Shown here: piece by piece, positions 16,240 to 48,281 of the stretch | Position numbering within the stretch: the stretch's first letter is position 1 | Layout: the number at the start of each line of letters is the position of its first letter | Origin: a virus | DNA: 48,281 nt | Direction: 5' to 3' (one strand) | Virus record (IMG/VR): IMGVR_UViG_3300031552_000007 | Coordinates: 1-48,281 of that record | The notes under the pieces: model-generated | The model's input: the letters and a program-made list of their open reading frames with translations, nothing else | Database searches by the model: none | What the model was told of the DNA's origin: nothing | Made by a program: the position numbers and the translations under genes

Positions 16240-16430
16240 ACAATCCTCACTTTAATCCCGATAATAGGAACAGATTTATATTTTCCTGATCCATTTATTG
16301 TTTCATATTTATCAATATCGAATTCAATCTCGTGATCACATCCTATTTTATTTGACAAATCCCATATTGTTTTCTGTATGCTTTTTTCTGCTTCCTGTAT
16401 TTCTTCTGATAGCTCTTTAAGCGTTTCCAT
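16236..16430 (-). CDS. Small hypothetical protein
   Basis: A 64-residue protein. I chose the ATG at 16430 because an AAGGAG site lies just upstream. An N-terminal helix (METLKELSEEIQEAEKSIQKTI) is followed by a beta-rich end with VPIIGIKVRIV. It overlaps the sugar dehydrogenase gene by 14 bases. Function unknown. Confidence 0.5.
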   Translation of the reverse strand: METLKELSEEIQEAEKSIQKTIWDLSNKIGCDHEIEFDIDKYETINGSGKYKSVPIIGIKVRIV

Positions 16431-17172
16431 TCTGATGCTCCTTATTAACCTTGTCAACCGCCTCGATCAGCCGTGCCCTCTGCCCGGTTGACAAGGCGAA
16501 CTGAATGAACGCCGGGATGTCTTTATCCAGGCAATGAGACTGATACCATGGATGCTGCCGGTAAGTAAAAGAATGGCTGCGACCGATCCTCGGATCCATC
16601 AGGAGCAGTTCACGGAACTCGTCAGAGTCTAGTCCCATACTTTCTGCAATCAGTGAGAACTCATGAAAGAATGTCACCTTTGTCGCGAGAAAGCAGTTTT
16701 CGGCATACTTCACAAGTTCGGCCATGCATGGTTCTGTTTTTGCGATATGAAAAGATCCGTCCTTTATCGTCTTGTACAGCTCTGCAACCTTGTCGGTATG
16801 AGGTCTATATCCTCCCAGAATGACGAAAGAATAATCAACAGCGTTCGCGTGCTGTGTGCCTCCGAAAAACTCAGGAGAAAAAACACAGTTCTTCCCTGTC
16901 TCTTCCATTATTTTTTCTGTGGTCCCTGGGGGAACAGTTGATTTGATTACAAAGATATCAGCCTTGTTTTCCTTGATGGCAGCCTCAACTATTGACGTAT
17001 CACAGGAACCATCAGAGAGGGGATCCGTCGGAACACAGACAAAGGCAATGTCATAATGAATCAGACCAGGCTTGTCGCTGTCATCATGATCTGGGTCGAC
17101 TATTCTTGCATCTCGAAAAAGGATTCTCATGTTTCTCCCGACAACTCCGTAACCGATAATTGCTGTTACCAC
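16417..17172 (-). CDS. Truncated UDP-sugar 6-dehydrogenase-like protein
   Basis: A 251-residue member of the UDP-glucose/GDP-mannose dehydrogenase family, starting at GTG behind AAGGAG. It has the NAD-binding GYGVVG motif at residues 7-12, VPTDP, STVPPGTT, FGGTQH, the central helix motif ELVKYAENCFLATKVTFFHE, and the catalytic Cys in SHCLDKD. Full-length enzymes have about 390-450 residues. The C-terminal sugar-nucleotide-binding domain is missing here. It may act on a different substrate or be a remnant. It makes uronic acids in the full-length family; a link to the glycosyl genes of the late block is inference. Confidence 0.75.
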   Translation of the reverse strand: MVTAIIGYGVVGRNMRILFRDARIVDPDHDDSDKPGLIHYDIAFVCVPTDPLSDGSCDTSIVEAAIKENKADIFVIKSTVPPGTTEKIMEETGKNCVFSPEFFGGTQHANAVDYSFVILGGYRPHTDKVAELYKTIKDGSFHIAKTEPCMAELVKYAENCFLATKVTFFHEFSLIAESMGLDSDEFRELLLMDPRIGRSHSFTYRQHPWYQSHCLDKDIPAFIQFALSTGQRARLIEAVDKVNKEHQNGNA

Positions 17173-30018: not shown

Positions 30019-31463
30019 TGAGCATATTCAGCAGTACGTTCGACTGGTTCAAATCCAGAAGCGCGACAAATAATCCTGTCAAGACATCCAGAAAGACGCC
30101 GCAGACCAGGGATTTCACAGACGGGATGCAGGTCAACCAAGCTCTGACTCGCGGGCTTTACTTCGGAGATTATCCTGGGCTGAAGCTGGCGTCGGCCTTG
30201 GCAATGGCACCTGTTAAGATCCCTGTCTTTTTCCAGGGGTTCCCTATTCCGAAGACTATTGAGGATGATAAAGAAATTGACCAGATCCTCAAGGATCTAA
30301 TCAAACAGTTCAATATGCAGATCCAGCAGATCCATATTCAACGGAGGAGGGAGGGGACAATCTGGGTATGGCCGAAGTTTTCTCAGGGCAAACTCTATTG
30401 GGAGTTCATCCCGGATAATACAGTCTGTGATATTATCAGGAATATCGACACGAACGAAATCCAGGAGTTGATCGTCGAAGAGAATATCACCGTGACAACA
30501 GCTTACAGCCGGAACGTCACAGTGACCCGCCGGAGATCATTCACAGAGCAGAGAATCACTGTAGCATACACCGGTTCCGGGATGCCGTCAGACCTGAAGG
30601 AAGGGACGATGCGGAATCCGATCGGGATGATTCCGGTTCCTTTTTCCTGCGAGGCTGACGGTGATGATATCCGCGGTCATTCTATTTATGGCAGGATTAT
30701 TGCGGATCTGAAAGCATACCACGACATCGACCTTTCACTTTCAACTCTTCTGGCGAAGTTCAAAATCAAACTGCTTCTCGGGACAGAGGACCCGGACGCC
30801 TTTGCGCAGGCGAACGGGTATGATGATGCGGCTGATATGTTTGCGAATATAGATATCAGCGAGATTGATTTGATGATCCACAGACCAGAAGCAGGAGACA
30901 CAGCTCCGGAGCTGCTGTCGCCTCCCCTGCAGGCATACCAGGCTTATATGGATGCCCTTAAGCTGAAGTTCCGGAAGATCATTGAAGGCTCCGGTATCCC
31001 TGAGATAGCATGGGGGCTGAAGACAGAAGGAAACCTCGCATCTGTCCAGGAGAATATGAGTACGCTGCTGATGTATGTCCGGGGAGACCAGAGAGAATGC
31101 ACGAATCCCTGGATCAAAGTTTTTGAGGCATCACTCAAACTTCTGATGATAGCTAGAATGATCAACAGAGATGTCAGTCTCACAGTCGAGTGGAATGACC
31201 TGGATTCTATCAGTGATGAAACTAAGTCGATTATTTTCAAGAACTTCGCAGAGGGGATCAGCAAACTGATGAGCGTTGCAGGTATGACAAAACAGCAGCT
31301 TCATCGGTTGTGGGATATGAACTTTCCGAACGCGACGGAGGATGATTTTAAAGAGTTTGTTCGGGGCCTCGGAGACATGGCAGCTTTCAAAGCCCTGGCG
31401 AGTGCTGACCCAATGACGGCTCTTGATGCCGCCGGGATGCTTAACCGGGAGACCACTGTTTGA
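30018..31463 (+). CDS. Portal protein
   Basis: A 481-residue protein between large terminase and minor head protein, the usual portal position. Features agree with the family: N-terminal basic region, alternating beta/alpha middle, a segment with SGIPEIAWG and a helical C-terminus with Met/Ala-rich end. The portal forms the ring at the capsid vertex for DNA entry and exit. The stop overlaps the TTG start of the next gene. Confidence 0.85.
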   Translation: MSIFSSTFDWFKSRSATNNPVKTSRKTPQTRDFTDGMQVNQALTRGLYFGDYPGLKLASALAMAPVKIPVFFQGFPIPKTIEDDKEIDQILKDLIKQFNMQIQQIHIQRRREGTIWVWPKFSQGKLYWEFIPDNTVCDIIRNIDTNEIQELIVEENITVTTAYSRNVTVTRRRSFTEQRITVAYTGSGMPSDLKEGTMRNPIGMIPVPFSCEADGDDIRGHSIYGRIIADLKAYHDIDLSLSTLLAKFKIKLLLGTEDPDAFAQANGYDDAADMFANIDISEIDLMIHRPEAGDTAPELLSPPLQAYQAYMDALKLKFRKIIEGSGIPEIAWGLKTEGNLASVQENMSTLLMYVRGDQRECTNPWIKVFEASLKLLMIARMINRDVSLTVEWNDLDSISDETKSIIFKNFAEGISKLMSVAGMTKQQLHRLWDMNFPNATEDDFKEFVRGLGDMAAFKALASADPMTALDAAGMLNRETTV

Positions 31464-32473
31464 CGAATGAGGCGTTTGAAGAGTTATACACGGCTGCTCG
31501 GGCAGAGTGGCCCCGTGTTCAACTCTCAGTCCTTAAAGAAATCAGGGATGTTTACATCCAGGCAGCCGATGAGTCTGCTGCTGTCGTCAGGGCAACAGAG
31601 GCCGCCGGGCTGTCTGACCTGACCTCTTCAGGGTGGCAGGCGATTGAGAGGCAGCTTCGGGAAGGCGCAAGAATAATCAGCCGGTCAGTTGAAGAGGCTG
31701 TTCCTGGCATGGTCACTGATTGTTATTTCCTGACAGAGGCGACCCCCGGGCCGGGACGGATTGACGCGAAATATCTATCAGAAGCCTTCACAGAAATCGG
31801 TGGGGTCATCACCGTTACCCCGGAAGGTCTTTCGAATATCTATCAATCTATCAATAATAGACTTGTCACAGCTCTTGTCAATCAGGAATGGCAGGATGGG
31901 TACACTTTCAGCGAAAGGATCTGGGGTGGGATAAACGGGCAGTATCAGGCAGACATCAAGAGAGTCGTTCAGGCAGGTGTAGCGCAGGGAAGGGATGTGA
32001 CCCAGATCGCCCGTGATATTGAGGTCTATGCCAGGAACGGGCGGGATTATACGTTCAGCGCAGGTCGATACGGGAGACTCAGGCCAGGGACCGGAGAATA
32101 TTCACGCCGGATCGGAAGAGCTATTGATTATCGCGCTCTCCGGCTTGCAAGGACGGAGCTTTATTCTGCCATGCAGACAGCTGCAGCATGGCAGGGACAG
32201 AGCAACCCAGCCTGTCCTGATTTGTATGATTGGGAGTTGAGCGGTGGTCGTCAGGGCTGGCCGTGTGATTGTGCTGATCTAGCCAGGAATAGTCCTTATC
32301 AATATGTCGAATTACCAGGATACCCCCATCCGAACTGCCTTTGTGTCATACGCCAAAAACTCCGCCCTCACGGCGAGTTCATGGCAGACCTGCAGTCATG
32401 GTCTGAGGGTGGTTCCGTTCCGTACCTGGATGAGTGGTATAACAAATATTATCTTCCTGCTCAATCAGGCTAG
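31460..32473 (+). CDS. Mu-F/SPP1 gp7-like minor head protein
   Basis: A 337-residue head-morphogenesis protein. The C-terminal motif PHPNCLCVI with CDCAD before it is typical of the Mu gpF/SPP1 gp7 family. A helical N-terminal part with a conserved-looking ARTELYSAMQ stretch precedes it. The protein sits inside the head near the portal and may be ejected. The likely start is TTG inside the portal stop (TTGA), giving coupled translation. Confidence 0.85.
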   Translation: MTNEAFEELYTAARAEWPRVQLSVLKEIRDVYIQAADESAAVVRATEAAGLSDLTSSGWQAIERQLREGARIISRSVEEAVPGMVTDCYFLTEATPGPGRIDAKYLSEAFTEIGGVITVTPEGLSNIYQSINNRLVTALVNQEWQDGYTFSERIWGGINGQYQADIKRVVQAGVAQGRDVTQIARDIEVYARNGRDYTFSAGRYGRLRPGTGEYSRRIGRAIDYRALRLARTELYSAMQTAAAWQGQSNPACPDLYDWELSGGRQGWPCDCADLARNSPYQYVELPGYPHPNCLCVIRQKLRPHGEFMADLQSWSEGGSVPYLDEWYNKYYLPAQSG

Positions 32474-33103: not shown

Positions 33104-33180
33104 AGGATATTGCTGAGATTATCTGTATAATAGCTGTTTGCCTCGGTGCACTTTTTTTCCTCTGGATGTTGCTCAAATGA
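33100..33180 (+). CDS. 26-residue membrane peptide
   Basis: A short ORF on an ATGA overlap with an AGGAGG site. It is a nearly continuous hydrophobic helix (IICIIAVCLGALFFLWMLL). It precedes the first glycosyltransferase with another ATGA overlap, so the two membrane peptides belong to the island operon and might anchor its enzymes. Confidence 0.5.
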   Translation: MKDIAEIICIIAVCLGALFFLWMLLK

Positions 33181-33974
33181 TCATCGTCACAGTCAGTTTC
33201 AACTACCCCCCAGAGTACAACCTTGCTGATTATGAAATGCTCGCCAGAGTTTTTCGGCATTCCTGCAGCAAGTATTGCCCTGATGCAAAGTTCATTGATA
33301 TAAAGGTCGAGCCTCCTGTCCTCCCTGAAGGCGATCGGCACGATCTCAATTTCCTGTACAATACTATTAAACTCGAAGAGTGGCTCCGTATAATCGAAGG
33401 AACAGATGAGAATATCGTTCTTGCTGATGCCGACATGGTTGCTATCAGGCCGTTCTCCGAGTTTGAGATATTCGATCATCATTTCGATGTCGGGTATACT
33501 GAACGGACTGAGGTCCGGATGAGAAAGGACAAGAATACAAGGCAGTATTGGGGTGAAGAGAAGATCAGGAGAATGCCGATGAACGGCGGGATCATGTTCG
33601 TGAAACCGACGGAGGCCGCCCGTGATTTCTTCAGGCAGTATAAAGAAGTCAATCAGAGGCTGTACGATAACGGGTATGAGCATAAGAAATGGCGGGTGAA
33701 ATACGCCGGGATGAACCAGGCGGCATTCGGCTGCCTGTTTGAGACCGGTCAGTATGAGGCCATTGTGAAGTCGTTTCCGTGCCGGACATGGAATGCTGTT
33801 GATACTGACTGGCCGCACGTCACACGGTGCGGATCTGTATTCGTTCACATGAAAAGCCGGCTTCGCCGTCTTGTTCTCGCGAGAAAGCAGCCTTTCGGGA
33901 ACTACAAGGAGGCGATGAAGTTGTGGTATAAAGAAGCTGCAGAGATAGGAGAAAGAATATGGACGGAACAGTAA
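33177..33974 (+). CDS. DxD glycosyltransferase 1 of the phosphonate-glycan island
   Basis: A 265-residue GT-A-fold glycosyltransferase; ATG 33177 overlaps the upstream stop. The metal-binding DxD is DAD at residues 84-86, after a short N-terminal beta/alpha region (IIVTVSFNYPPEYN). A loop with GGIMFV and the segment YAGMNQAAFG follow, then WNAVDTDWP. The last two are also in the gene at 36537. It transfers a sugar from a nucleotide donor; acceptor unknown. Its 3' end contains one copy of a 21-bp repeat, so the final residues may have been altered by insertion of the next gene. Confidence 0.75.
   Translation: MIIVTVSFNYPPEYNLADYEMLARVFRHSCSKYCPDAKFIDIKVEPPVLPEGDRHDLNFLYNTIKLEEWLRIIEGTDENIVLADADMVAIRPFSEFEIFDHHFDVGYTERTEVRMRKDKNTRQYWGEEKIRRMPMNGGIMFVKPTEAARDFFRQYKEVNQRLYDNGYEHKKWRVKYAGMNQAAFGCLFETGQYEAIVKSFPCRTWNAVDTDWPHVTRCGSVFVHMKSRLRRLVLARKQPFGNYKEAMKLWYKEAAEIGERIWTEQ
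33932..33952 (+). repeat. 21-bp direct repeat, copy A (flanks inserted gene)
   Basis: Identical to 34321-34341. It encodes the end of glycosyltransferase 1 (KEAAEIGE) and carries the ribosome site used by the 33959 gene. Beyond the exact repeat the two copies stay similar for about 25 bases, including both ATG starts. Confidence 0.95.
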
Positions 33975-34315
33975 AATGTATTTTTTGTGGAAAAGAAATT
34001 GAAGGTGGATGTCGCTCTTCTTTTGGCGCATATTGTTTTGAATGCGAAGAGAAAAAAGAGAATAAAATAATTATAGAAAGACATAATAATGAAGAAATGA
34101 TTAAGACCATAAAAGAATATAATAAAAAGGGTTTGTGCGGGTATAGAATAGCAAACGGAGAATTTTGTCAAAATAAAATACCCTGCAAGAAGCATCAGGA
34201 TTTAACATGTTGGGTATGTGGTAAAAAAGCAATATCAAATTGCATAAATTATGATGATTCATTATCCGTGTGTGAAGATCACCCACAGATAATGCAAACA
34301 ATAAATTATAGATAA
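33959..34315 (+). CDS. Inserted AT-rich zinc-finger protein
   Basis: A 118-residue protein with Cys pairs at CIFCGK, YCFEC, CWVCGK and CEDH, i.e. two possible zinc sites, plus a Lys/Glu/Ile-rich middle. The gene is far more AT-rich than its neighbours. It sits between 21-bp direct repeats that duplicate the junction of its two neighbours. It looks like a recent foreign gain (a moron) that took over the duplicated ribosome site. A nucleic-acid-binding role is likely; function unknown. Confidence 0.7.
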
Positions 34316-34320
34316 TTATG

Positions 34321-34341
34321 AGAAGCTGCAGAGATAGGAGA
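34321..34341 (+). repeat. 21-bp direct repeat, copy B (flanks inserted gene)
   Basis: Second copy, 389 bp downstream, just before the start of the PEP mutase gene. Read from this copy the old end of glycosyltransferase 1 would have been GEPVWEE with a stop overlapping the mutase start. So the genes were probably overlapped before the insertion. Confidence 0.95.
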
Positions 34342-34347
34342 GCCGGT

Positions 34348-35610
34348 ATGGGAGGAGTAAAACAGGTCTACATCGCTATGAGCGCGGACATCATTCACCC
34401 CGGGCATCTGAATATCATCAGGCACGGGGCAAAGCTCGGTGAAGTCACGATCGGACTCCTGACAGATAAGGCAATCGCCAGCTATAAGCGGCTGCCTTAT
34501 ATGACATACGAGCAGCGGAGGGAGGTTGTTCTCGGGCTGAAAGGCGTCTCCCGCGTCCTTGATCAGGATACCCTAGATTACCGCCCGAACCTGAAAAGGC
34601 TCAGACCGGATTATGTTGTTCACGGAGATGATTGGAGGGAAGGCGTCCAGTCACAAACCCGTGAACAGGTTCTTTCTGTTCTGTCAGAATGGGGCGGTCA
34701 GCTGATTGAAGTTCCGTATACCGAAGGGGTCAGCTCGTCAGGACTCAGGGAAGGAATCCGATCCAGAGGGATTACTCCAGAGAAGAGGCGCGTGATGCTC
34801 CGTCGGCTTATCAGAGACAAGAAGCCTGTCCGGATCTGCGAGGCGCATAACGGGCTGTCCGGTCTTATTGTTGAGCGGTCCGGATTTGACGGGATCTGGT
34901 GTTCCTCTCTGGCCGATTCTCTTTCCAGGGGGAAGCCTGATATTGAGGCTGTTGATATTACAAACAGAATCAGGACTGTTGAAGAGATAATGGAAGTGAC
35001 GACAAAACCGATTATCTTTGATGGGGATTCCGGCGGCAGGACTGAGCATTTCTGCTTTACTGTCCGGACGTTGGACAGGCTCGGCGTCTCGGCTGTTATC
35101 ATAGAGGACAAGGTCGGCCCGAAACGGAACAGCCTCGGGAGTGGTGAAGGACAAAGACAGGCGGATCCGCAGGAGTTTGCGGAGAAGATCAGGGCCGGGA
35201 AGGCCGCGCAGATTTCTGATGACTTCATGATAATCGCGAGGATTGAGAGTTTTTGTCTCGGCAAGGGTCTTGATGATGCTGTTGACCGGGCAGAGGTGTA
35301 CATCGAGGCCGGGGCAGATGCGATTATGATTCATTCGAAGAATGAGAGCGCCGAAGAGGTTTTTTCTTTTTGTGATGCTGCCGATTATGGAGTCCCTCTT
35401 GTATGTGTGCCGACGACTTATGATCGATGCCCTGGTGATCTTCTTTCAAAAAAAGGTATCAATGTTATTATCTATGCGAACCAGTTGATCAGGGCTTCCA
35501 TTCCGGCAATGCAATCTATAGTAAATGATATTCAGAATTATGATTGTGCATATCCTGTCCGCGGGAAAATTATCCCCGTTAAAGAAACATTGGAGTACAC
35601 AGATGTTTGA
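34348..35610 (+). CDS. pepM: Cytidylyltransferase - phosphoenolpyruvate mutase fusion
   Basis: A 420-residue bifunctional enzyme. Start chosen at ATG 34348, behind AGGAGA; the frame is open from 34318. Residues 1-135 are a TagD-type nucleotidyltransferase with HPGH at 17-20. Residues about 145-420 are PEP mutase: [14 protein letters not shown] (225-230), [10 protein letters not shown] (253-262; the EDK-x5-NS motif that separates PEP mutase from isocitrate lyase-like relatives), HSKN and VPTTY. The mutase isomerises PEP to phosphonopyruvate, making the C-P bond. The N-terminal domain probably activates the final phosphonate with CTP. The same fusion is known from bacterial phosphonate clusters. 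Confidence 0.92.
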
Positions 35611-36562
35611 TTTTCTTGTGGGAGTCCCGGACTCCACTCTCGCCGGGCTTGGCGGTATCGTTGCCGCTAATGAAGGGAGCGCCATTGGGCTGGCAATCGG
35701 GTATCACCTGGCAACAGGAAAGACTCCTGTTGTGTATATGCAGAATTCAGGGCTGTGGAACGCCATGAACCCGATAACGTCTCTGGTTATCCCTTACGGG
35801 ATCCCGATGACGCTGTTGATCAGTGATAGGGGAGGATTACCACAGCATGAGATTGATTTCGGGATGAGCACAGAGGTCCTTATGTCTGCCGGTTTTTCTC
35901 TTTTCCATATCGATACAAAAAAAGACTTGTTCGATGTCTCCGAGGAAGAAAAAGGCAAGCTGTCTGCTGTTGTTATTCCAGACGGAATGTTCAAAACCGA
36001 CCAAAAAGAAAACACCGACCGTGAAAAAACAATCGAACGGATTCTCAGTGAAGCACCGCCGGACAGTATCTTTGTTTCTGCCACCGGGAAGATCAGCCGG
36101 GAGCTGTATGAACTCCGCGGAGACAGACACGAGAAAGACTTTCTCTGTATCGGAGGCATGGGTCATTGTCTTCAGGTAGCAGCAGGAATAGCTATGCAGA
36201 AACCAAATAGGCGAGTTGTGTGTCTGGATGGTGATGGTTCAGTTCTGATGCATCTCGGCGGGTTGGCTGTCGTGGCACAGATGAGGCTCCGGAACCTGAC
36301 TCATATTATGCTGAATAATGGTTCCCATGATTCTGTTGGCGGTTGCCCGACTGTTGCGCTCGATCTGGATTTCAGATATATAACTGGTGGAATGGGTTAT
36401 TTATATTCAACTGAGCTGAAGTTCGAGAACGGCCCATGGTTCTGTGAGCAGTTTGTTTCGTCTGGAGCGCGTGCGGATCTCGGCAGGCCGAAGGAACAAC
36501 CGGGAAAGTTGAAAAATATTTTCATGGAGAACTTGAATGAAGATAGTCACAACCATCTTTGA
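35603..36562 (+). CDS. ppd: Phosphonopyruvate decarboxylase
   Basis: A 319-residue ThDP-dependent enzyme. ATG 35603 overlaps the mutase stop by 8 bases with GGAG upstream; a longer frame from 35525 lies in the mutase gene. Family matches: VGVPDS at the start, [31 protein letters not shown], and the ThDP/metal motif GDGS...NN (about residues 211-240). It decarboxylates phosphonopyruvate to phosphonoacetaldehyde, which pulls the unfavourable mutase reaction forward. It is shorter than usual (about 370-400 residues), mostly through a lost N-terminal helix and a shorter first domain. Confidence 0.9.
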
Positions 36563-37346
36563 CTATGCCAGGACCTCTTTCAATTATCAACAGCTGTATG
36601 ATGTTTTCGTCGCTTCCTGCAGGAAGCACATGCCGGGCGTCGAGGTCGTGACTCTCGAATTGGATGTTCCAATGCAGAAAGATGACCGGAAGCCTGGACT
36701 GTGGATCAATACCTGCAAGCTCCGGGCGCAGGTTGAATACCTGGAACACGCTGATGACGATGTTGTTTTCTGTGATTGCGATATGCTTTGCCTGAGATCA
36801 AACGAGGATGTCTGGGACATGCTGTTTGATATCGGGTACACAGAGAAACCGGCCTGGAAGAAAACCAGGTGCCGATTGAATGGTGGTGTTGTTTTTGTCC
36901 GGAACACAGAACGCGCTCATGCCTGGATGCGGAAACTCTTGGAAATCAATGACCGGATGTATTACGATTTCCGATTCCACAAACAGTGGAGGGTTAAATA
37001 CTTCGGGATGAATCAATCTGCAATGGGATACATGATTGAGATGCACCCGGAGATTGCCGACGCGGTCTCTCTCTCCACTCAGGTCTGGAATGCTGTTGAC
37101 TGTGACTGGCAGTATGTCAACGAAGAAACAAGGTTTGTTCATGTGAAAGGCAAGCTCCGGCATTGCGTTTTCCTCCGGGAGGGCTATCCGTGGATGCATG
37201 ATATCTTGAAAGAATGGGCCTCGTATACTGACAGGAAAGAGATTACAGTGTCAGAAAAGATGCCATGGGACATCAAAAAAGAGCAGATGAAAACCCAGAA
37301 AAAGAAAAGGGTTCGTGGTTTCGACTATAAAAGGAGACGACTGTGA
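36537..37346 (+). CDS. DxD glycosyltransferase 2
   Basis: A 269-residue GT-A-like enzyme. The DxD is DCD at residues 80-82. RLNGGVVFVRNTERA, WRVKYFGMNQSAMG and WNAVDCDW match the first glycosyltransferase closely, so they are paralogues. A basic C-terminus (QKKKRVRGFDYKRRRL) could bind a membrane surface or nucleic acid. It overlaps the decarboxylase by 26 bases. It probably adds a second sugar to the same glycan. Confidence 0.75.
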   Translation: MKIVTTIFDYARTSFNYQQLYDVFVASCRKHMPGVEVVTLELDVPMQKDDRKPGLWINTCKLRAQVEYLEHADDDVVFCDCDMLCLRSNEDVWDMLFDIGYTEKPAWKKTRCRLNGGVVFVRNTERAHAWMRKLLEINDRMYYDFRFHKQWRVKYFGMNQSAMGYMIEMHPEIADAVSLSTQVWNAVDCDWQYVNEETRFVHVKGKLRHCVFLREGYPWMHDILKEWASYTDRKEITVSEKMPWDIKKEQMKTQKKKRVRGFDYKRRRL

Positions 37347-38059
37347 AAATTGTAACGATTCATTTTGAAGAGGATTATAATGATTTTTCCAATCTTTTAA
37401 AGGTCTGGGAATACTCAGCTCGATTGCATCATCCGGATGCGGAGGTTGTTGTTCTGACTGTACCACGGCCTGAAGAGGTCTCGAGGAAGTGTGATCCGTT
37501 TCTGACGTTCTCATCTTCGTATGCTTTTTTGGAAATGGCGAGGTGGGCTCTTACTCAGAACGATGAAATAATCATGACAGATGCGGACCTGATGTTTACC
37601 GGGGATTGCTCTCCTGCTTTCAAAGAGGACTTCACTCTCGGTGTTACTGTCAGAAAGGCCCGCGGGTGGCTCAACGCCGGTGTCTTGTTTTATCGGCCTG
37701 CAGGGCGGGGGATTCTGAAGTCAATAATCAGGATGACGGAAACCATTGTTTCGAATCCGGAGCTGTTCGTTGAACATGTCAGTGAGTGCCTGGGAGGTGA
37801 CCAGACAGCAATTACCCTTCATGCTCTGAACGACAACAGTATTAAACGGTTTTCCTGTTCGGAGTATAATCTTGAGCAGAACAGCTGGGAATGGTTTTCT
37901 GAGAATACAAAGATCGTCCACATGAAGTCGAACCTGTGGGACATGGTCCAGGGTTTGGAGCCTCGGCGACCGGTTCCGGAGGATCATGTGACGCACAGGA
38001 TTTTTGAGATTTGGAAAGGGTATTTGAGGGAGGCAGGTTGTGACGAAGGATCCGAATAA
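37343..38059 (+). CDS. DxD glycosyltransferase 3
   Basis: A 238-residue paralogue, starting at GTG on a 4-base overlap. The DxD is DAD at 80-82. KARGWLNAGVLFYR, GGDQTAIT and IVHMKSNLWD follow the same plan as the other two but the WRVKYxGMNQ segment is replaced. It is the most divergent of the three and so probably has another donor or acceptor. Confidence 0.7.
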   Translation: MKIVTIHFEEDYNDFSNLLKVWEYSARLHHPDAEVVVLTVPRPEEVSRKCDPFLTFSSSYAFLEMARWALTQNDEIIMTDADLMFTGDCSPAFKEDFTLGVTVRKARGWLNAGVLFYRPAGRGILKSIIRMTETIVSNPELFVEHVSECLGGDQTAITLHALNDNSIKRFSCSEYNLEQNSWEWFSENTKIVHMKSNLWDMVQGLEPRRPVPEDHVTHRIFEIWKGYLREAGCDEGSE

Positions 38060-38621
38060 GAACAGAACCGAAGATGACTTCAAACGACAGGCTGAAATGC
38101 TCATTGAGGTGAAGGCTGTTCTGACAAAATACAAACAGCCGGCTATCATGTCGGATGGGATTGTTCTGGGATACGTACGGGATGGTGACTTTATCTCGTG
38201 GGATTTCGATGCCGACTTTTTTCTGGAAGCTGAGAAAGTAATGGGACTTGAGGACCACATTGCGAATGAATTCTCTTCTCTCGGGTATGAGATCATCACT
38301 GTTCGTGGTGGCCTGAATGACTGGAAGGTTGCCATTGATAAATACGATTATCATATTGATCTGCGGAGTTTTTTCCGGGTTAAGGATATGCACATCAGCA
38401 AAGTAAAACGGTCGAACGGGAAGTGGAGCGTGTACACCATGCCGACCGGATTTATGGATAACCTGCAGGAAATAGAATTCCGCGGTGGATTATATTTGAT
38501 CCCGCACGATACCGAAGGATACCTGACTCATCTTTACGGCCCGGACTGGCGAATACCTATCAGGAGCGTGAAACAGAAAGAATATCTCAACCCGGTATTC
38601 AAACAGGAGGTTTCAGTGTGA
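38040..38621 (+). CDS. LicD-like phosphotransferase (candidate phosphonate transferase)
   Basis: A 193-residue LicD/fukutin-type protein starting at GTG behind GGGAGG. The core is GIVLGYVRDGDFISWDFDADF (in part, residues about 43-60), with the family's W-D-x-D-x-D pattern at 54-59, and a C-terminal GGLYLIP...YLTHLYGPDWRIP, as in LicD proteins. LicD moves phosphocholine from CDP-choline to a sugar. Beside a CTP-type activating domain on PEP mutase, this one is well placed to transfer an activated phosphonate to a glycan. That link is inference. Confidence 0.75.
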   Translation: MTKDPNKNRTEDDFKRQAEMLIEVKAVLTKYKQPAIMSDGIVLGYVRDGDFISWDFDADFFLEAEKVMGLEDHIANEFSSLGYEIITVRGGLNDWKVAIDKYDYHIDLRSFFRVKDMHISKVKRSNGKWSVYTMPTGFMDNLQEIEFRGGLYLIPHDTEGYLTHLYGPDWRIPIRSVKQKEYLNPVFKQEVSV

Positions 38622-39256
38622 TTGACCTGACCGAATACGCCAAGACTTTCCCGAGCATGGGAGGCCTTCAGATCGGGGAGCATATCAGAAACGCAGTGAA
38701 GCAGATCCAGGACGGCGTTGCCATTGTCGAACTCGGGACATGGATGGGAGCCGGGACCGCACAGGCTGCTCTCGCTGTAATGGATTATGAAAAGGATAAT
38801 CCCATATACACATACGACAGGTTCGTTGTCTCCGGCAGACAGCCGATGAAAGCAGCCCGGGAGGGAGTGAGCCTGAAACCTGGAACGAGCAATTATGAAC
38901 TTGTGAAAGGAATGCTCAGTGTCTTTCCTGTTCCGATAACTGTTATCAGGAAAGAGATCCGCAAGGCAGAATATCATGGCGGCCCCATCGGGCTTTATAT
39001 CGATGATGCCTGTAAACAGGAATCGAACTTCATAGAGACACAGAGAATCTTCTGGCGGCATTTCATCCCAGGAATGACGATCTGCATATTCATGGATTTC
39101 TACCTCTGGAAAAAAACGGGTGATGAAAAGCATAAGTTTCAGTACAACTTCATCACTGCCAGGCCGGAGCGGTTCAAATATTTGAGAGATATTGAAGAGA
39201 CATACGGCGGAGAGGAAGAGTTCGGCGCGATGTTTCTTTATCTGTGTGAAAAATGA
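38618..39256 (+). CDS. SAM-dependent methyltransferase-like protein
   Basis: A 212-residue class I methyltransferase-like protein, GTG start 6 bases after AGGAGG. SAM motif I is VELGTWMGAG (about residues 37-46). GPIGLYIDDAC could be the acidic metal-binding segment of TylF/macrocin-type sugar O-methyltransferases. It may methylate a sugar or the amino group of the phosphonate. It is the last gene of the island and is followed by a terminator. Confidence 0.65.
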   Translation: MIDLTEYAKTFPSMGGLQIGEHIRNAVKQIQDGVAIVELGTWMGAGTAQAALAVMDYEKDNPIYTYDRFVVSGRQPMKAAREGVSLKPGTSNYELVKGMLSVFPVPITVIRKEIRKAEYHGGPIGLYIDDACKQESNFIETQRIFWRHFIPGMTICIFMDFYLWKKTGDEKHKFQYNFITARPERFKYLRDIEETYGGEEEFGAMFLYLCEK

Positions 39257-39414
39257 CCTTCATATTCGCCCGAGGATCGCTTTTCAAGGTATTAAAGGTA
39301 TATTGGCACACGTGCCATTTTTAAAGGCCGGTGTTTCGTTTTTATAATTCTTTACTATATATAGAGTTATATAAAAACTGTAAAAATCTTAATATTTTAT
39401 AAAACAATAAAAAG

Positions 39415-39508: not shown

Positions 39509-40753
39509 ATGAAGAAGAAACTTGTCTTTTTGAATTACGCGGATATCGGTTCAAAGGTTTCTGCCGACTCAATCCCGACTCTGGTCCCTGAAGAAAAGAT
39601 GAAATCGTTACTCGGTGATGATGAATCTCCTTTCTACAAAGTCGAGTCGATTGAGTACCCTGTGAAGGGTACAGGCGGGATCTATCAGGAACAGTTTTTC
39701 GAGTCCTTCAAAAACGTGATGAGTGACAGGCCGATCCCCGGATCGAAGCGCGGTCACACATGGGAATCCCGCCCGACATCCGACCTGTACACGGTCGGAG
39801 CCAGGATGGACAAGAACGGTGATGGAACCGGGATGATTCACATGAAAATCTATATCCCTCCCGATGGAGACTCTGACAGCAACGCCGGGCTGATCCGTGA
39901 TGCGAAGGCAAACATTGTCCATTTCTCCCTGGTCACATGGCCTGAGTACACTGTCTCGAAAGACGAGGAAGGGAATGAAATCACATATTTCACAGCATCG
40001 AAAGGATATGAAAGAAACGATGCTGTTGAATATGGAGCCGGAGCAATGCAGCAGAAAGTCAATTCGGATGAATATGGCTGGCTCGAGGAAGCGAGATCGC
40101 TGATTGAGTCAGGTCGTTTCAATACAGACGATGATTCTGATAAGCCCATCCATGACGGGGTTGTTATGCGTTCCGCGCTGAGACGAATGGTCTCCCGCGC
40201 TAATGCAGAACACAAGCCTGAGATTGCAGAGCTGATCAGTCTGATCGACAAAAACAAAGGAGCAAGAACAGTGACTAAAAAGGAAATCCTCGAAGCTGTT
40301 TCGGCAGCCATCGAGAATAACTCGTTGACGCTCAAAGAACTTGCCGCCGCCGCAAACAGTGAGGATCGTCTCCTGACGAATAACCACGAGGACGCGCTGG
40401 CAATGGCAGAACAGTTCGCTGAACTCGGTGTTGATAATCCTGTCTCTTCTTACAAGAACATGGAAGAGACAATCAAAAAGACTGAGAAAGCCCGTGTTGA
40501 GAACAAACTCAAAGCTGAGTTTGATCCGAACGGTCTCGGCGAGAAAAATGATCTGCTTACTCATGCCGTTGACAAACTCGGGAACACTCCCGAGGCAGAG
40601 CTGGATGAAGCAATCGCAGAGCTGAAAGAAACAGCCGTTGCCAAGAATCTGGCAGGCCAGTTGGCCGACGCAGGGTCAGAAGCAAACCAGATCGGTTATT
40701 CTGACAAAACCACAAAAAACGAAATCACGGGCGCACCCGTGATTGAACTGTAG
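39509..40753 (+). CDS. Prohead protease with scaffold domain
   Basis: A 414-residue protein with no normal ribosome site; its ATG coincides with the predicted transcript start. The N-terminal half resembles phage maturation proteases (GHTWESRP, then IVHFSLVTWPEYTV, where His and Ser are possible catalytic residues). The second half, from about residue 205, is highly helical, with Glu/Lys/Ala composition, as in scaffolds that line the prohead. Fusion of protease and scaffold is well known. It precedes decoration and capsid genes. Confidence 0.75.
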   Translation: MKKKLVFLNYADIGSKVSADSIPTLVPEEKMKSLLGDDESPFYKVESIEYPVKGTGGIYQEQFFESFKNVMSDRPIPGSKRGHTWESRPTSDLYTVGARMDKNGDGTGMIHMKIYIPPDGDSDSNAGLIRDAKANIVHFSLVTWPEYTVSKDEEGNEITYFTASKGYERNDAVEYGAGAMQQKVNSDEYGWLEEARSLIESGRFNTDDDSDKPIHDGVVMRSALRRMVSRANAEHKPEIAELISLIDKNKGARTVTKKEILEAVSAAIENNSLTLKELAAAANSEDRLLTNNHEDALAMAEQFAELGVDNPVSSYKNMEETIKKTEKARVENKLKAEFDPNGLGEKNDLLTHAVDKLGNTPEAELDEAIAELKETAVAKNLAGQLADAGSEANQIGYSDKTTKNEITGAPVIEL

Positions 40754-40762
40754 GAGGTCGAG

Positions 40763-41176
40763 ATGTCTTTACCCGCATCACAGGACAATTCGTCAAACCA
40801 TCAGGGATACGTCGTTAAAGAAAAAACCACTGGTGATGATCACATTGCGATCACCGCGGCTGCTGACATCACTCAGGGTGACTTCGTAAAAGCGTCTCCG
40901 TATTTCGGCCTTGCCGATGAGGACATTGCGTCCGGAGCAAATGGAACGATTCATGTCGGCCAGATCTATGAGGTCGGCTCTGACATGATCGGTTCCGGGG
41001 AGACTTTCGACACCTGGGGTCAGGAAGTGTACTGGGACACCGCCAAGAGTAAGTTTTACGAATCTGAAGGCGATGGAAACCGGTATCTTGTAGGGTATGT
41101 CAGGAGAGTTGAAAACTCAAATGATGTATTTCGTTTCGAGGGACTGCGGTTCCACGGCGCAGAAGCCAGCACCTAA
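40763..41176 (+). CDS. Capsid decoration protein, DUF2190-like
   Basis: A 137-residue beta-rich protein with a strong GGAGG site, between protease/scaffold and major capsid genes. Segments such as ITQGDFVKASPYFGLADEDI and RRVENSNDVFRFEGL fit the DUF2190-like family commonly found here. Such proteins can stabilise or decorate the capsid. It is one possible carrier for glycans made by the island. Confidence 0.65.
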   Translation: MSLPASQDNSSNHQGYVVKEKTTGDDHIAITAAADITQGDFVKASPYFGLADEDIASGANGTIHVGQIYEVGSDMIGSGETFDTWGQEVYWDTAKSKFYESEGDGNRYLVGYVRRVENSNDVFRFEGLRFHGAEAST

Positions 41177-41186
41177 GGAGTAATAT

Positions 41187-42386
41187 ATGGCACTTATACT
41201 TGATAAAAATGCGCTCGTTGAACAGCGCGTGAAGAACGGATACTCACTGAGGTCCGTTGGGTATTCCGGAAAGAAAGAACAGAATCTCAAAGCAACAGAT
41301 CCGGAAAGTCTGAAAACAGGTGACAACACTGTTGTCATGAAATCAAATATCTGGGAAGGGTCAGAAGGCCATGCCAAGGTCTGGAATAAAATCGAGGATC
41401 TTCATAAGAAAGCGAAGAACGCCTCCATGCTGCCTGATGACTGGTCAACACTGACTGACCTCATGCGTATTGATATCACCCGCAGACGGATGCAGGAAGC
41501 TGACTACACTGACATGGTCATGAATGAACAGGTCAATGATGCTTTCGGGAAGTCCGTCCGGCTGGATGAGTTCCTTGACGCTGGTGGTGCTTTCGAGGAT
41601 ATCTACGGGAATAATGACGCCGTTCCTCTCCTGGAACATAAAACCGGAGCAACCGGTTCTGTCAGCATGGACCTCTTTGCGCTGGGTGACAAAACCAGCT
41701 TGCAGGATGTGATCTATAACCCGCTCTATGATATTCAGAAAGTCATGCGGGCTGTCACGCGGGCATACGTCGGTCTGCGAAACAACAGAAATGTTCTCGG
41801 CCTGATGGTTGCCAAGACAACCGCTGCCGGATGGGACACAGGACAGCAGGAAGCCGCCGATACAGTCGAGACTTCGAAAGAGGCAAAACTGTATGCTACT
41901 CTTGTGAATGCTTATGACAGGCTGTTGAACCTGACTGATGCCCAGACCGGGCAGACGATCGGTGCCGATCAGGTTTATCTTGCTATTCCTTATGGGAAAC
42001 AGATGTGGTTCCAGAGAGCCGTCAACGGACAGCTTAACCTCGGAGGAAAAGGAAAGCCCTCGAATTTCGAATCCCTGTCCTGGCTTGATGCTATCATCCC
42101 GTATCGGGGCGATACGATCTATGTCGGCGAAGATACTGTTTCTTACCCCGGCGTTGCTGCAACAAAGGCATATATGTTCGTCCCCCGTGCAGCCTATACC
42201 CTGACAAAGCGCGGGCTGACTATGGAACAGGGCAAAGGATCTGTTCTTACCCTGAGTCAGGAAGAGCGCGTATGGTACGGAATCCAGACTGAATATGTTG
42301 CTGAGTTTTTCGGGTATTCTCACAGCACCCCCGTCGGTTCTTCTGGAACTGGCATGTGTGTAGAGATCACCCTGCCGACTCTTTAG
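41187..42386 (+). CDS. Major capsid protein
   Basis: A 399-residue protein directly after the decoration gene, with AAGGAG before the ATG. The position, length, acidic/hydrophobic mix and end with SHSTPVGSSGTGMCVEI fit an HK97-fold capsid protein. The helical N-terminal 90 residues may be a delta region removed by the protease. High use of common codons agrees with a strongly expressed protein. A terminator/promoter hybrid follows at once. Confidence 0.8.
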   Translation: MALILDKNALVEQRVKNGYSLRSVGYSGKKEQNLKATDPESLKTGDNTVVMKSNIWEGSEGHAKVWNKIEDLHKKAKNASMLPDDWSTLTDLMRIDITRRRMQEADYTDMVMNEQVNDAFGKSVRLDEFLDAGGAFEDIYGNNDAVPLLEHKTGATGSVSMDLFALGDKTSLQDVIYNPLYDIQKVMRAVTRAYVGLRNNRNVLGLMVAKTTAAGWDTGQQEAADTVETSKEAKLYATLVNAYDRLLNLTDAQTGQTIGADQVYLAIPYGKQMWFQRAVNGQLNLGGKGKPSNFESLSWLDAIIPYRGDTIYVGEDTVSYPGVAATKAYMFVPRAAYTLTKRGLTMEQGKGSVLTLSQEERVWYGIQTEYVAEFFGYSHSTPVGSSGTGMCVEITLPTL

Positions 42387-45438: not shown

Positions 45439-46093
45439 GCAGTTAATTGAAGAGGCGGCATATCAGGAGATATGGCCGCCCTTCAATGGCCTGATTATCG
45501 GGCCGGTAATTGTTCGCCCGCTCCGGCAGGTTGAGATTGAAGAGTGCGGAAACTTCTCACTGATAGAAACCTTTTACGATAAGATCCAGAAGAAAGAGGT
45601 TTCGGCTGAAGACATGCTTCAGTTTGCTAAAATCCAAAACAGGATCATGAGGTATGCCATGATCTCGCCTTCGTATGATGATGCATTGAAGGCTGCTTCA
45701 TTATACGAAGATGCACAGGCGATGAAAGCTGATATCAAAAAAGCAAGGGAAGATGCTCTTGCTGAGAATGACGCAGGTGAAAGGGCGAAGAAAGAAAGAA
45801 CCCTGTTGAATAAGGAGCTTGCTTTTTATCAGATTTTCCCGGCTGATTTCGCGGGGACGATTTTTTCTTATGGTGTTGAACTGGTTGATAAAAACGACAT
45901 TAAAAAAGTTGACGAGGAGATTTTGAAGAACCTTGCTATCATGGCAAGGAATAATAATAATCGCCCGTCGGAGAATATAACGGGCAACTTCACTGATTTT
46001 AACAAGGCCGATATCGACCGGAGAGCATGGGCGATATACGCAGAGGAACAGGAGAAAAAGAATGCCCGCAGGAATAGACGCCGGAACCGTTAA
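45359..46093 (+). CDS. Tail assembly chaperone-like protein
   Basis: A 244-residue helical protein between tube and tape measure. I prefer ATG 45359, 5 bases from AAGGA, over 45353. The first 28 residues overlap the tube gene in another frame and are rich in Ser, Thr and Gln. The end is very basic (KKNARRNRRRNR). I do not see a second frame that would make a frameshift product. It probably coats the tape measure during assembly. Confidence 0.6.
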   Translation: MAQSTLQNTEKNSQSQNTQPSTSRTCEQLIEEAAYQEIWPPFNGLIIGPVIVRPLRQVEIEECGNFSLIETFYDKIQKKEVSAEDMLQFAKIQNRIMRYAMISPSYDDALKAASLYEDAQAMKADIKKAREDALAENDAGERAKKERTLLNKELAFYQIFPADFAGTIFSYGVELVDKNDIKKVDEEILKNLAIMARNNNNRPSENITGNFTDFNKADIDRRAWAIYAEEQEKKNARRNRRRNR

Positions 46094-48281
46094 TGCACAA
46101 GTCAGAGTAAACACTGGCGCACTCCATGGCGATCTCATGTCAGCCGGGACATTTTTCAAAACCTTTGCTGGCGGGGCCGTTGCTTCTCTTGGGGCAATCG
46201 GACTGGCCGTCGTTGCCCTTACAAAAACAATCCAGGGAATAAAAGCCGCCGTCTCAACATTCGCTTCTTTTGAACAGTCAATGGCGAACGTCGCTTCTGT
46301 AGCCAAGGCGTCCACTCAAGAGATGGAAGCCCTTAATGCGGCAGCCCAGGAAGCAGGACGGACAACCAGGTTTACAGCTTCACAGGCTGCCGATGCTCTT
46401 TATTATTTGGCTTCAGCTGGGTTTGATGCCACTCAATCAATGGGTGCCTTGAACGGTGTTCTTTATCTGGCCGGAGCGACACAGTCTGATCTGGCGACAA
46501 CGTCTGCATCTGTCGCGGCGTCTATCAGTCAGTTCAACCTCGAAGCTGAGGATGCCGTGCGTGTTGCCAATGTTTTTACCGCTGCGATAACTAATTCACA
46601 GGCGACAATGGACAAGCTGACGACATCAATGAGGTATGCAGGACCGGTTGCTTCCGGTCTTGGAATCTCTCTGGAAGAGACTGTCGGCGCGCTTCAGATC
46701 CTGTATAACAACGGATTCGCTGCGACTCAGGCAGGGACGGCTCTCAGGGCTGCCCTCGGTGATCTGGCAAACGCAACCAGTCCGGCGATTGCAAAACTGA
46801 AGGAACTCGGTGTTAGTTTTGATGATGTCAACCCTGCAACTCATAGTCTTGCGGAAGTGATGGGAGTCCTTGGAGAAGCCGGACTCGAGACCGGCGACAT
46901 CATGGCGATTTTCGGGAACCGGGCAGGACCTGCATTGATCAAACTGATCCAGGGTGGCCGTGAGGCCATAGAGGAATATACAGAAGCAGTAACGGACACG
47001 AACGCTGCTGCCGAGGCTTATGCTATCCAGAACGATACTCTTGCCGGCGCACAGGACAGGTTTAAGAGTGCGACTGAATCACTGGCGATTGCTGTCGGGG
47101 AGCAGTTGGCTCCGTTTCTCCAAAGAGTCCTCGAGCTTGGGATTCAGATTGTTAATTGGTTAACAGAGGCTGCACCGACAATCGGTAATGTCTTTAAGTT
47201 GATAACAACATTAACACCTCTCGGTGCCGTTATCGCTTTGTCCGATGCGATGGATGGTGGACGGTCTGCCGCAGACGAATACGCAAAGGATCTGGACAAG
47301 GTCAGCGATGCTCTTGATATGGTTAACCAGGTTGTCGATGCAAACGTCGGCATCCACAATAGGAGGATTGAGCTTGACGGCCTTGTAAATGAATATGAAA
47401 CATTAACAAGCCAGACCACGCTCAATGCTGATGAACAGGAAAGGCTCAGAGTCGTTATTGATCAGTTGGCTGATCGGGTCCCTGATGCTGCCAGTGCTTT
47501 TGATGAGTTTGGGAATGCCATTGAGATTAACACAGATATCGCGCGCCAGGCTTCTCTTGATCTTTTGGAACTGGAAAAGGCGAATAATGAAGCAGCTCTT
47601 GCAACCCTCGAGGCAGAACAGTGGATAGCACAGGAAAAAGCAAAAGCCCTTGAATATTCCAGGGATTCATCCCGCGAAGAATACCAACGGAAGCGCGACG
47701 AACTCGCTGAACTAAGCGATCAATATACGAGAATACTTGGAATTGAAGCACAGTACCAGGCCGAACGTGAACAGGTATGGGAAAGTGGTGCTGATATTTA
47801 TGATGCTCAAGTTGAAGCTGCTCAGAATCTATTTAATGCAGACGTTATTACACAACGAGAATTGCAGAGTGTTATTGATAAATCAATCAATTTTGTATCA
47901 CTTCTTCAGACAAAAGTAAGACCGTTGAAGGAAAGATACCAGGAATTAACGGAAGAGGTACAGAATCAGTTTAATGAATGGCAGGAAGTTGAGAGTCAGT
48001 ATCAAAGAGCAGACGAACTCTCTCTCGAGATTGCAAAAAAACAGCAGGAGATAGCTGCCAATGAAAGAGCAATCGGGATTATTCAAACACAGAATAATGA
48101 TAATCAGCTTCAGGGTGAGGATGACCTCGATAATGAACGTGAAGATAATTACCAGAATGAAATAATCAGGCTTGAGAAACTCAGCGCAGCAGAACAGGAT
48201 TTCTTGAAAAAGAAAACTGATGCAGAACTCGAACAATCAAAAAATAGAGTCGATATTGAAAAACAATCAGCGCAGGAAGCC
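46062..48281 (+). CDS. Tail tape-measure protein, N-terminal part (continues at 1)
   Basis: The gene starts at ATG 46062, 8 bases after GGAG and overlapping the chaperone by 32 bases, and continues across the window end to 988. The N-terminal region is of the TP901-type tape-measure kind: FFKTFAGGAVASLGAIGLAV membrane-like helix, then FEQSMANVASVAKAS, TRFTASQAADALYYLASAG and GNRAGPALIKL. A long coiled coil follows. With 1-988 the total is about 1026 residues, which predicts a tail of roughly 150 nm if the usual 0.15 nm per residue holds. Confidence 0.92.
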   Translation, partial: MPAGIDAGTVNAQVRVNTGALHGDLMSAGTFFKTFAGGAVASLGAIGLAVVALTKTIQGIKAAVSTFASFEQSMANVASVAKASTQEMEALNAAAQEAGRTTRFTASQAADALYYLASAGFDATQSMGALNGVLYLAGATQSDLATTSASVAASISQFNLEAEDAVRVANVFTAAITNSQATMDKLTTSMRYAGPVASGLGISLEETVGALQILYNNGFAATQAGTALRAALGDLANATSPAIAKLKELGVSFDDVNPATHSLAEVMGVLGEAGLETGDIMAIFGNRAGPALIKLIQGGREAIEEYTEAVTDTNAAAEAYAIQNDTLAGAQDRFKSATESLAIAVGEQLAPFLQRVLELGIQIVNWLTEAAPTIGNVFKLITTLTPLGAVIALSDAMDGGRSAADEYAKDLDKVSDALDMVNQVVDANVGIHNRRIELDGLVNEYETLTSQTTLNADEQERLRVVIDQLADRVPDAASAFDEFGNAIEINTDIARQASLDLLELEKANNEAALATLEAEQWIAQEKAKALEYSRDSSREEYQRKRDELAELSDQYTRILGIEAQYQAEREQVWESGADIYDAQVEAAQNLFNADVITQRELQSVIDKSINFVSLLQTKVRPLKERYQELTEEVQNQFNEWQEVESQYQRADELSLEIAKKQQEIAANERAIGIIQTQNNDNQLQGEDDLDNEREDNYQNEIIRLEKLSAAEQDFLKKKTDAELEQSKNRVDIEKQSAQEA
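48155..48281. repeat. Terminal overlap, copy 2 (circular closure)
   Basis: Exact copy of 1-127. Removing one copy gives a circular unit of about 48,154 bp. A circular map fits either headful packaging, where linear ends are permuted, or a circular replicative form. Confidence 0.95.

Follow-up and report, generated by a model that had tools for sequence, protein, structure and literature searches.

The window analysed here is the 48,281-base linear IMG/VR virus record IMGVR_UViG_3300031552_000007, which comes from an uncultured phage, and the whole analysis is computational, i.e. it draws on sequence, homology, synteny, selection and predicted structures. An island of enzyme genes, all on the + strand, lies between the MuF gene and a prohead-like gene (Table 1). 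Its order is GT1, a small Cys-rich ORF, a fusion of cytidylyltransferase (CyTase) and PEP mutase (PepM), a gene resembling phosphonopyruvate decarboxylase (Ppd), GT2, GT3, LicD and a methyltransferase (MT). The terminase (at 28690) and portal (at 30018) genes are found upstream of the island, as is MuF, while the prohead, decoration and putative major capsid protein (MCP) genes are found downstream. As terminase, portal, MuF, decoration and putative capsid genes all flank the island, its head-gene setting is certain. A preliminary description of this DNA had placed eight named genes inside a phage head operon, and both their positions and strand and the location itself are borne out. The prohead-like gene has homologues that occupy an equivalent place in related phages. 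Shine-Dalgarno-like sites precede most island genes, and a scan for promoters and terminators gave weak evidence of a possible transcription restart 3' of the island. As far as sequence comparison goes, family matches of the strength seen for PepM, LicD and the Ppd-like protein are not due to chance.

Table 1. Features of the island and of the flanking head genes (positions in the window).
Feature	Position	Strand	Evidence or remark
MuF-like head morphogenesis protein, flank	31460..32473	+	phrog_1657, 2.3e-39
GT1, GT-A-like glycosyltransferase, DADM motif	33177..33974	+	PF03407, 21.7 bits, just below the cut-off of 22
36-nt direct repeat, left copy, with Shine-Dalgarno-like site	33932..33967	+	81% identical to right copy
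AT-rich, Cys-rich small ORF between GT1 and PepM	33959..34315	+	30.5% GC
Direct repeat, right copy, with PepM Shine-Dalgarno site	34321..34356	+	resembles former GT1 3' end
Cytidylyltransferase (PF01467, HPGH)-PEP mutase (EDK-x5-NS) fusion, 420 aa	34348..35610	+	profiles, alignment
Compact Ppd-like TPP decarboxylase, 319 aa	35603..36562	+	profile, alignment, model
GT2, GT-A-like glycosyltransferase, CDCDM motif	36537..37346	+	PF03407, 22.8 bits, cut-off 22
GT3, GT-A-like glycosyltransferase, TDADL motif	37343..38059	+	homology to GTs in related phages
LicD-family nucleotidyltransferase-fold protein	38040..38621	+	PF04991
MT, class I SAM methyltransferase, sugar O-methyltransferase-like	38618..39256	+	Foldseek: MeT1, SpnH
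Prohead/scaffold-like protein, flank	39509..40753	+	assigned from its place between MuF and decoration, without a family match
Head decoration protein, flank	40763..41176	+	phrog_122, 8.9e-11
Putative MCP, flank	41187..42386	+	synteny; phrog_3116 (unknown function)

The PepM protein passes the curated cut-off of TIGR02320 (342.9 bits against 319.55). Its EDK-x5-NS motif at residue 253 is intact, the catalytic residues are kept, and so are 133 of the 145 conserved columns defined over 102 homologues. The N-terminal PF01467 domain carries HPGH at residue 17, so the fusion of PepM to an HPGH nucleotidyltransferase is as originally proposed, and C-P bond formation and CTP activation are supported by sequence as its predicted functions. 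The best PDB match of the CyTase domain is 5x3d (193.9 bits), a 160-aa, CyTase-sized chain labelled phosphoenolpyruvate phosphomutase, which we take to be the CyTase domain of Fom1. The Fom1 CyTase makes CMP-HEP, the activated form of 2-hydroxyethylphosphonate (HEP) (PMC6697681). The retained HxGH and the similarity to 5x3d point to a Fom1-type CyTase domain, for which HEP is the predicted substrate. Identity of the phage fusion to its cellular counterparts reaches 61%. In the PepM tree the island protein has the longest branch of all rows (1.53) and groups weakly with cellular rows; its common descent with a viral clade of 16 rows was considered and is unsupported, given this grouping and the long branch. 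Since the island PepM falls outside the main viral clade and sits weakly with cellular sequences, it was likely captured separately from that clade. PepM and Ppd have the same codon use as the structural genes, hence the capture is probably not recent.

No other family comes close to TIGR03297 for the Ppd-like protein (E 9.5e-81), even though the score, 271.6 bits, does not reach the curated equivalog cut-off of 312.5. The island protein has about 55 residues fewer than cellular Ppd; it keeps GDG (from residue 210), NN at 238-239, the catalytic glutamate E24 and 70 of 83 conserved columns. Its active-site loop, DRGGLPQH, is shortened and resembles GHRHSLPQH of two-chain (split) viral Ppds; a short xxRxxLPQH loop is in fact common to the island protein and many viral split Ppds. 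The structure model (pLDDT 87.6) has as its top PDB match the beta chain of RhiEF (4.6e-11, TMt 0.84). RhiEF is a two-chain phosphonopyruvate decarboxylase. The gene product is thus Ppd-like and predicted to be active. Its earlier naming as phosphonopyruvate decarboxylase is upheld by family, motifs and fold and falls short at the TIGR03297 cut-off, while decarboxylation as the predicted function is supported.

The step after Ppd is where we depart from the preliminary description, which spoke of a full set of phosphonate genes and put 2-aminoethylphosphonate (AEP) first among the products. The set is incomplete: a search of the contig found no phosphonoacetaldehyde reductase (Fe-ADH; best E 0.32), and AEP transaminase was found neither in the island nor in the rest of the contig, with the control L114 positive. 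In homologous loci the Fe-ADH gene usually lies directly 3' of Ppd. Within this PepM clade, i.e. among the 80 cellular homologues that are the nearest of 546, the Fe-ADH profile matched 74 of the 80 loci with the whole fusion, as well as 19 of 20 viral loci with the whole fusion, three of whose ADHs were also checked against Pfam. Most loci with no match are interrupted by a contig end. The AEP-transaminase query had zero matches among these 80 cellular and 20 viral loci, and again matched the control. Because the homologous loci pair with Fe-ADH and never with a transaminase, and because the CyTase is nearest to the Fom1 domain, HEP is the more likely product than AEP, and formation of HEP with a host reductase is favoured by these comparisons.

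The remaining genes would serve glycan attachment. Three glycosyltransferases had been named; GT1 and GT2 come near the PF03407 cut-off, and GT3, which has no direct Pfam match, is recognised only through GT paralogues of related phages. The LicD-like protein stands as named: it scores 39.5 bits against PF04991 (cut-off 22.6), has its D-x-D motif as WDFDAD, and in its C-terminal part matches NF045866; an alignment to FKRP is weak (E 0.036). LicD is predicted to move a CMP-activated headgroup onto a sugar. The methyltransferase assignment also holds, in this case through the fold, which matches SAM methyltransferases with no direct Pfam match. A modest resemblance to the sugar O-methyltransferases MeT1 and SpnH is suggested by a model with pLDDT 70, the one good model in five. 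Homologues of GT2 or MT were not found among annotated phage proteins.

A single contig of 22.8 kb (L027/L029; about 77-86% nucleotide identity) represents the closest relative. It carries GT1-GT2-GT3-LicD-MT at the equivalent position, and there GT1 directly joins GT2. Precisely PepM and Ppd are absent from its island; as the contig is a fragment, the genome may hold copies outside it. As this relative has the five glycan genes in place without PepM and Ppd, gene order indicates that PepM-Ppd is a separable two-gene cassette. By the same comparison the link of PepM to LicD is looser than the preliminary description assumed, since LicD and three GTs are kept there without PepM or Ppd. The five shared genes are under strong purifying selection: dN/dS against L027 is 0.057 for GT1, 0.047 for GT2, 0.047 for GT3, 0.043 for LicD and 0.066 for MT, i.e. 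lower (0.04-0.07) than in the prohead or capsid genes (0.08-0.13), with dS partly saturated. In the more distant relatives L030 and L031 the stretch from MuF to prohead contains no island. The cousins L117-L123 have homologous GTs at other head-operon sites, namely between terminase and portal or 3' of the capsid gene, and their islands also contain Methyltransf_24 proteins, UDP-sugar dehydrogenase and TupA-like ATP-grasp genes. A search for the host, in which TerL and portal were compared with samples of 398, 289, 395 and 395 genomes from four phyla and which included no positive control, gave no match.

It is instructive to compare the island with known systems. Cellular NTase-PepM/Ppd/Fe-ADH clusters of bacteria and archaea (PMC6697681) have the same fusion followed by Ppd, with LicD and GT neighbours, whereas the phage copy is without ADH, has a compact Ppd and is placed in a head operon. 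Fom1 of fosfomycin biosynthesis likewise has a CyTase on the PepM N-terminus and is a close match over this domain, but the island has glycan enzymes and no later fosfomycin enzymes. The preliminary description suggested looking for PepM/Ppd pairs in phage genomes. Twenty IMG/VR contigs have the whole NTase-PepM fusion, mostly with a split Ppd and a short ADH; most PepM contigs show no terminase, and phage status is supported for only three of those with the whole fusion. These are G019, a T4-like phage with Gp23 (3e-62) and terminase, G013 with a terminase, and G011 with a tail-sheath gene. A further contig with a terminase, G024, has the NTase part only. Two gut records named 'Bacteriophage sp.' with a close PepM (MT837901, MT836947) were not accepted as coming from phages, as their neighbour genes look bacterial. 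Independent HEP modules are thus present in other phages, one of them T4-like. Such modules (e.g. L019, a T4-like contig of 106 kb) share NTase-PepM and Ppd in a phage genome with our island, but differ in that Ppd is in two chains, a short ADH is present, the location is outside the head operon and the PepM belongs to a separate tree branch. In the cultured Vibrio phage Va2 (MW073017), too, one gene is annotated as PEP mutase and another encodes a TPP enzyme resembling Ppd; in contrast to the island, its PepM is divergent (EDK-x6-NS), the genes adjoin ribonucleotide reductase genes and no glycan genes are adjacent. No published account of a phage PepM-Ppd cassette was found in the open-access literature.

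Which glycan would be decorated is a matter of weighing virion against host. In Corndog phages an O-methyltransferase, two GTs and a GlcNAc transferase lie between portal and protease, and capsid modification is suspected (PMC4351075). The placement of GTs and an O-methyltransferase in the structural operon of these Cluster O mycobacteriophages is similar to that of the island and recurs in it, although no PepM, Ppd or LicD is described there (PMC4351075); the parallel is one of layout, with no homology detected for GT2 or MT. Virion glycosylation has been reported for Che8 (cited in PMC11256854). Conversely, the island could alter host surface glycans and thereby mask receptors or change the serotype, with the phosphonate on lipid-linked or surface sugars. 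Cellular PepM/LicD clusters do serve cell surfaces (PMC6697681), and it has been proposed for marine bacteria that surface phosphonate could block adsorption (PMC8931226). However, a simple hydropathy scan predicted that the island enzymes have no TM segments and that the contig encodes no polytopic membrane protein, i.e. no candidate flippase or membrane GT, so that the membrane GT and flippase of Gtr-type host serotype conversion were not found. The late head-operon position and the GT islands in relatives' head operons also speak against a host target, and we regard it as unlikely. The virion is favoured as the target because the enzymes appear soluble, no flippase or membrane GT is obvious, related phages have islands in their head operons, the layout matches Corndog, and Che8 is reported to have a glycosylated virion. 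The putative MCP is a possible acceptor.

We therefore propose, at somewhat less than an even chance, a late-expressed virion-glycan island with a detachable PepM-Ppd headgroup cassette. The PepM domain would isomerise PEP to phosphonopyruvate, which would then be decarboxylated to phosphonoacetaldehyde by the compact Ppd-like enzyme, both steps being predicted from sequence. A host oxidoreductase would then yield HEP (alternatively, a host transaminase would yield AEP), and the Fom1-like CyTase domain would turn HEP into CMP-HEP. In the cytoplasm GT1, GT2 and GT3 may assemble a short sugar attached to a head protein; LicD would transfer the phosphonate from the CMP donor to this sugar, and the methyltransferase may cap a hydroxyl. 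Addition or loss of the cassette would change the headgroup; where the cassette is lacking, this LicD would use a different CDP-linked group from the host. LicD need not use a phosphonate, since in the nearest relative the glycan genes are present although PepM-Ppd is missing. The lack of a post-Ppd enzyme on the contig, the Ppd score and the long PepM branch count against the model as a whole.

The same relative lends weight to a different reading, in which the GTs, LicD and MT draw on a host CDP-donor (choline, polyol or host phosphonate) to decorate the virion and PepM-Ppd is an unrelated metabolic passenger; in most viral PepM contigs, moreover, LicD is not close to PepM. Yet the PepM-Ppd pair occupies exactly the GT1-GT2 junction and reading frames overlap there, the CMP donor type used by LicD-like enzymes is what the CyTase domain would yield, and LicD homologues are close to several cellular PepM loci, which leaves the passenger reading about as improbable as a host target. 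It is more doubtful still that PepM-Ppd is a decaying or inactive relic whose Ppd has lost its N-terminus and loops. The short, sub-threshold Ppd and the long PepM branch would fit such decay, but both frames are open, the conserved columns are largely kept, the short loop is shared with many viral split Ppds, and codon use is that of the structural genes. We give very little credence to a phosphonate that is never placed on a glycan and serves as a small molecule, be it a phosphorus store, an antimicrobial or a nucleotide modifier: Fom1-type CyTase domains do occur in antibiotic pathways (PMC6697681) and the PepM-like and TPP genes of Va2 adjoin ribonucleotide reductase, but here three GTs, LicD and MT share the operon, further tailoring enzymes are absent and the location is a late head operon.

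Phosphonates are rare compounds, and it is debated which organisms produce them and what they are for. The gene content suggests a phosphonate-tipped sugar on the phage's own particle and a virion-glycan island in which the phosphonate module is apparently optional; the activity of the enzymes, their product, its acceptor and the benefit are what we infer from sequence, homology, synteny and selection. In its fullest form, which we hold slightly more tentatively than the island model itself, the proposal is that the phage, aided by a host enzyme, synthesises HEP or AEP de novo and attaches it as a cap to a glycan on a head protein, that the virion bears a C-P bond, and that relatives swap headgroup modules. 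If this is true, phages join the producers of C-P compounds, the virion gains a hydrolysis-resistant decoration, and the swappable sugar-modifying islands in phage head operons are accounted for.

A last point concerns the small Cys-rich ORF between GT1 and PepM, which the preliminary description did not contain. Its GC content is far from the 46-51% of the neighbour genes, and it is flanked by the two copies of the direct repeat, the first 21 nt of which are identical. The ORF is probably a later intruder, with the ribosome-binding stretch duplicated on insertion. In the right copy, ATG 34348 is served by a good Shine-Dalgarno site and is therefore the probable start of PepM, and ATG 35603 is the most likely start of the Ppd-like gene.

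On viral contigs L019, L005, L011, L003 and others we observe a conserved module made up of a cytidylyltransferase-PEP mutase fusion (NTase-PepM), a phosphonopyruvate decarboxylase (Ppd) split into two chains, and a short iron alcohol dehydrogenase (Fe-ADH). In many cases an extra gene lies 5' of this module, which in L019 belongs to the sulfatase/AP superfamily. Judged from sequence, modules of this type are predicted virus-borne pathways for 2-hydroxyethylphosphonate synthesis within large glycan clusters. In the cultured phage Va2, the ribonucleotide reductase genes lie between a PepM-like gene, which is divergent and has the motif EDK-x6-NS, and a gene for a Ppd-like TPP enzyme; the PepM-like/Ppd-like pair might have a role in nucleotide modification. 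Two gut records labelled 'Bacteriophage sp.' (MT837901.1 and MT836947.1) were rejected as phage evidence, as they resemble pieces of a bacterial chromosome that carry phosphonate genes.

The ORF between GT1 and PepM in the window is low in GC and Cys-rich, and the direct repeat enclosing it is arranged as if a ribosome-binding stretch had been duplicated upon insertion. In L027, the closest relative, the MuF head protein is longer by approximately 300 aa; an intein-like insert begins at a Cys in its C-terminal part. The glycosyltransferase GT3 of L027 carries an additional domain of approximately 120 aa, fused at its C-terminus, that is absent from the window. The window has a UDP-glucose/GDP-mannose dehydrogenase-like gene in its early region, on the minus strand; in the related phage L117, a gene of this kind lies in the head operon.

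Since the left-end frame matches a tape-measure family and frames run off both ends, the contig could represent a near-complete genome whose ends come from a cut within the tape-measure-family gene.

Coordinates of features in the window and in related or compared viruses
Feature	Location	Remark
Open frames at both contig ends	window 46062-48281 and 2-988	run past ends
UDP-glucose/GDP-mannose dehydrogenase-like gene	window 16417-17172 (-)	early region
36-nt direct repeat with Shine-Dalgarno-like site, both sides of ORF	window 33932-34356	
Terminator-like hairpin, then promoter-like site	window 39304-39348	between island and prohead gene; consensus matches only
MuF gene, longer form	L027 864-2792	
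GT3 fusion	L027 5585-6679	
PepM-like and Ppd-like genes around ribonucleotide reductase genes	MW073017 104837-110942	cultured Vibrio phage Va2
L019	106 kb T4-like contig	carries NTase-PepM/split Ppd/short Fe-ADH module
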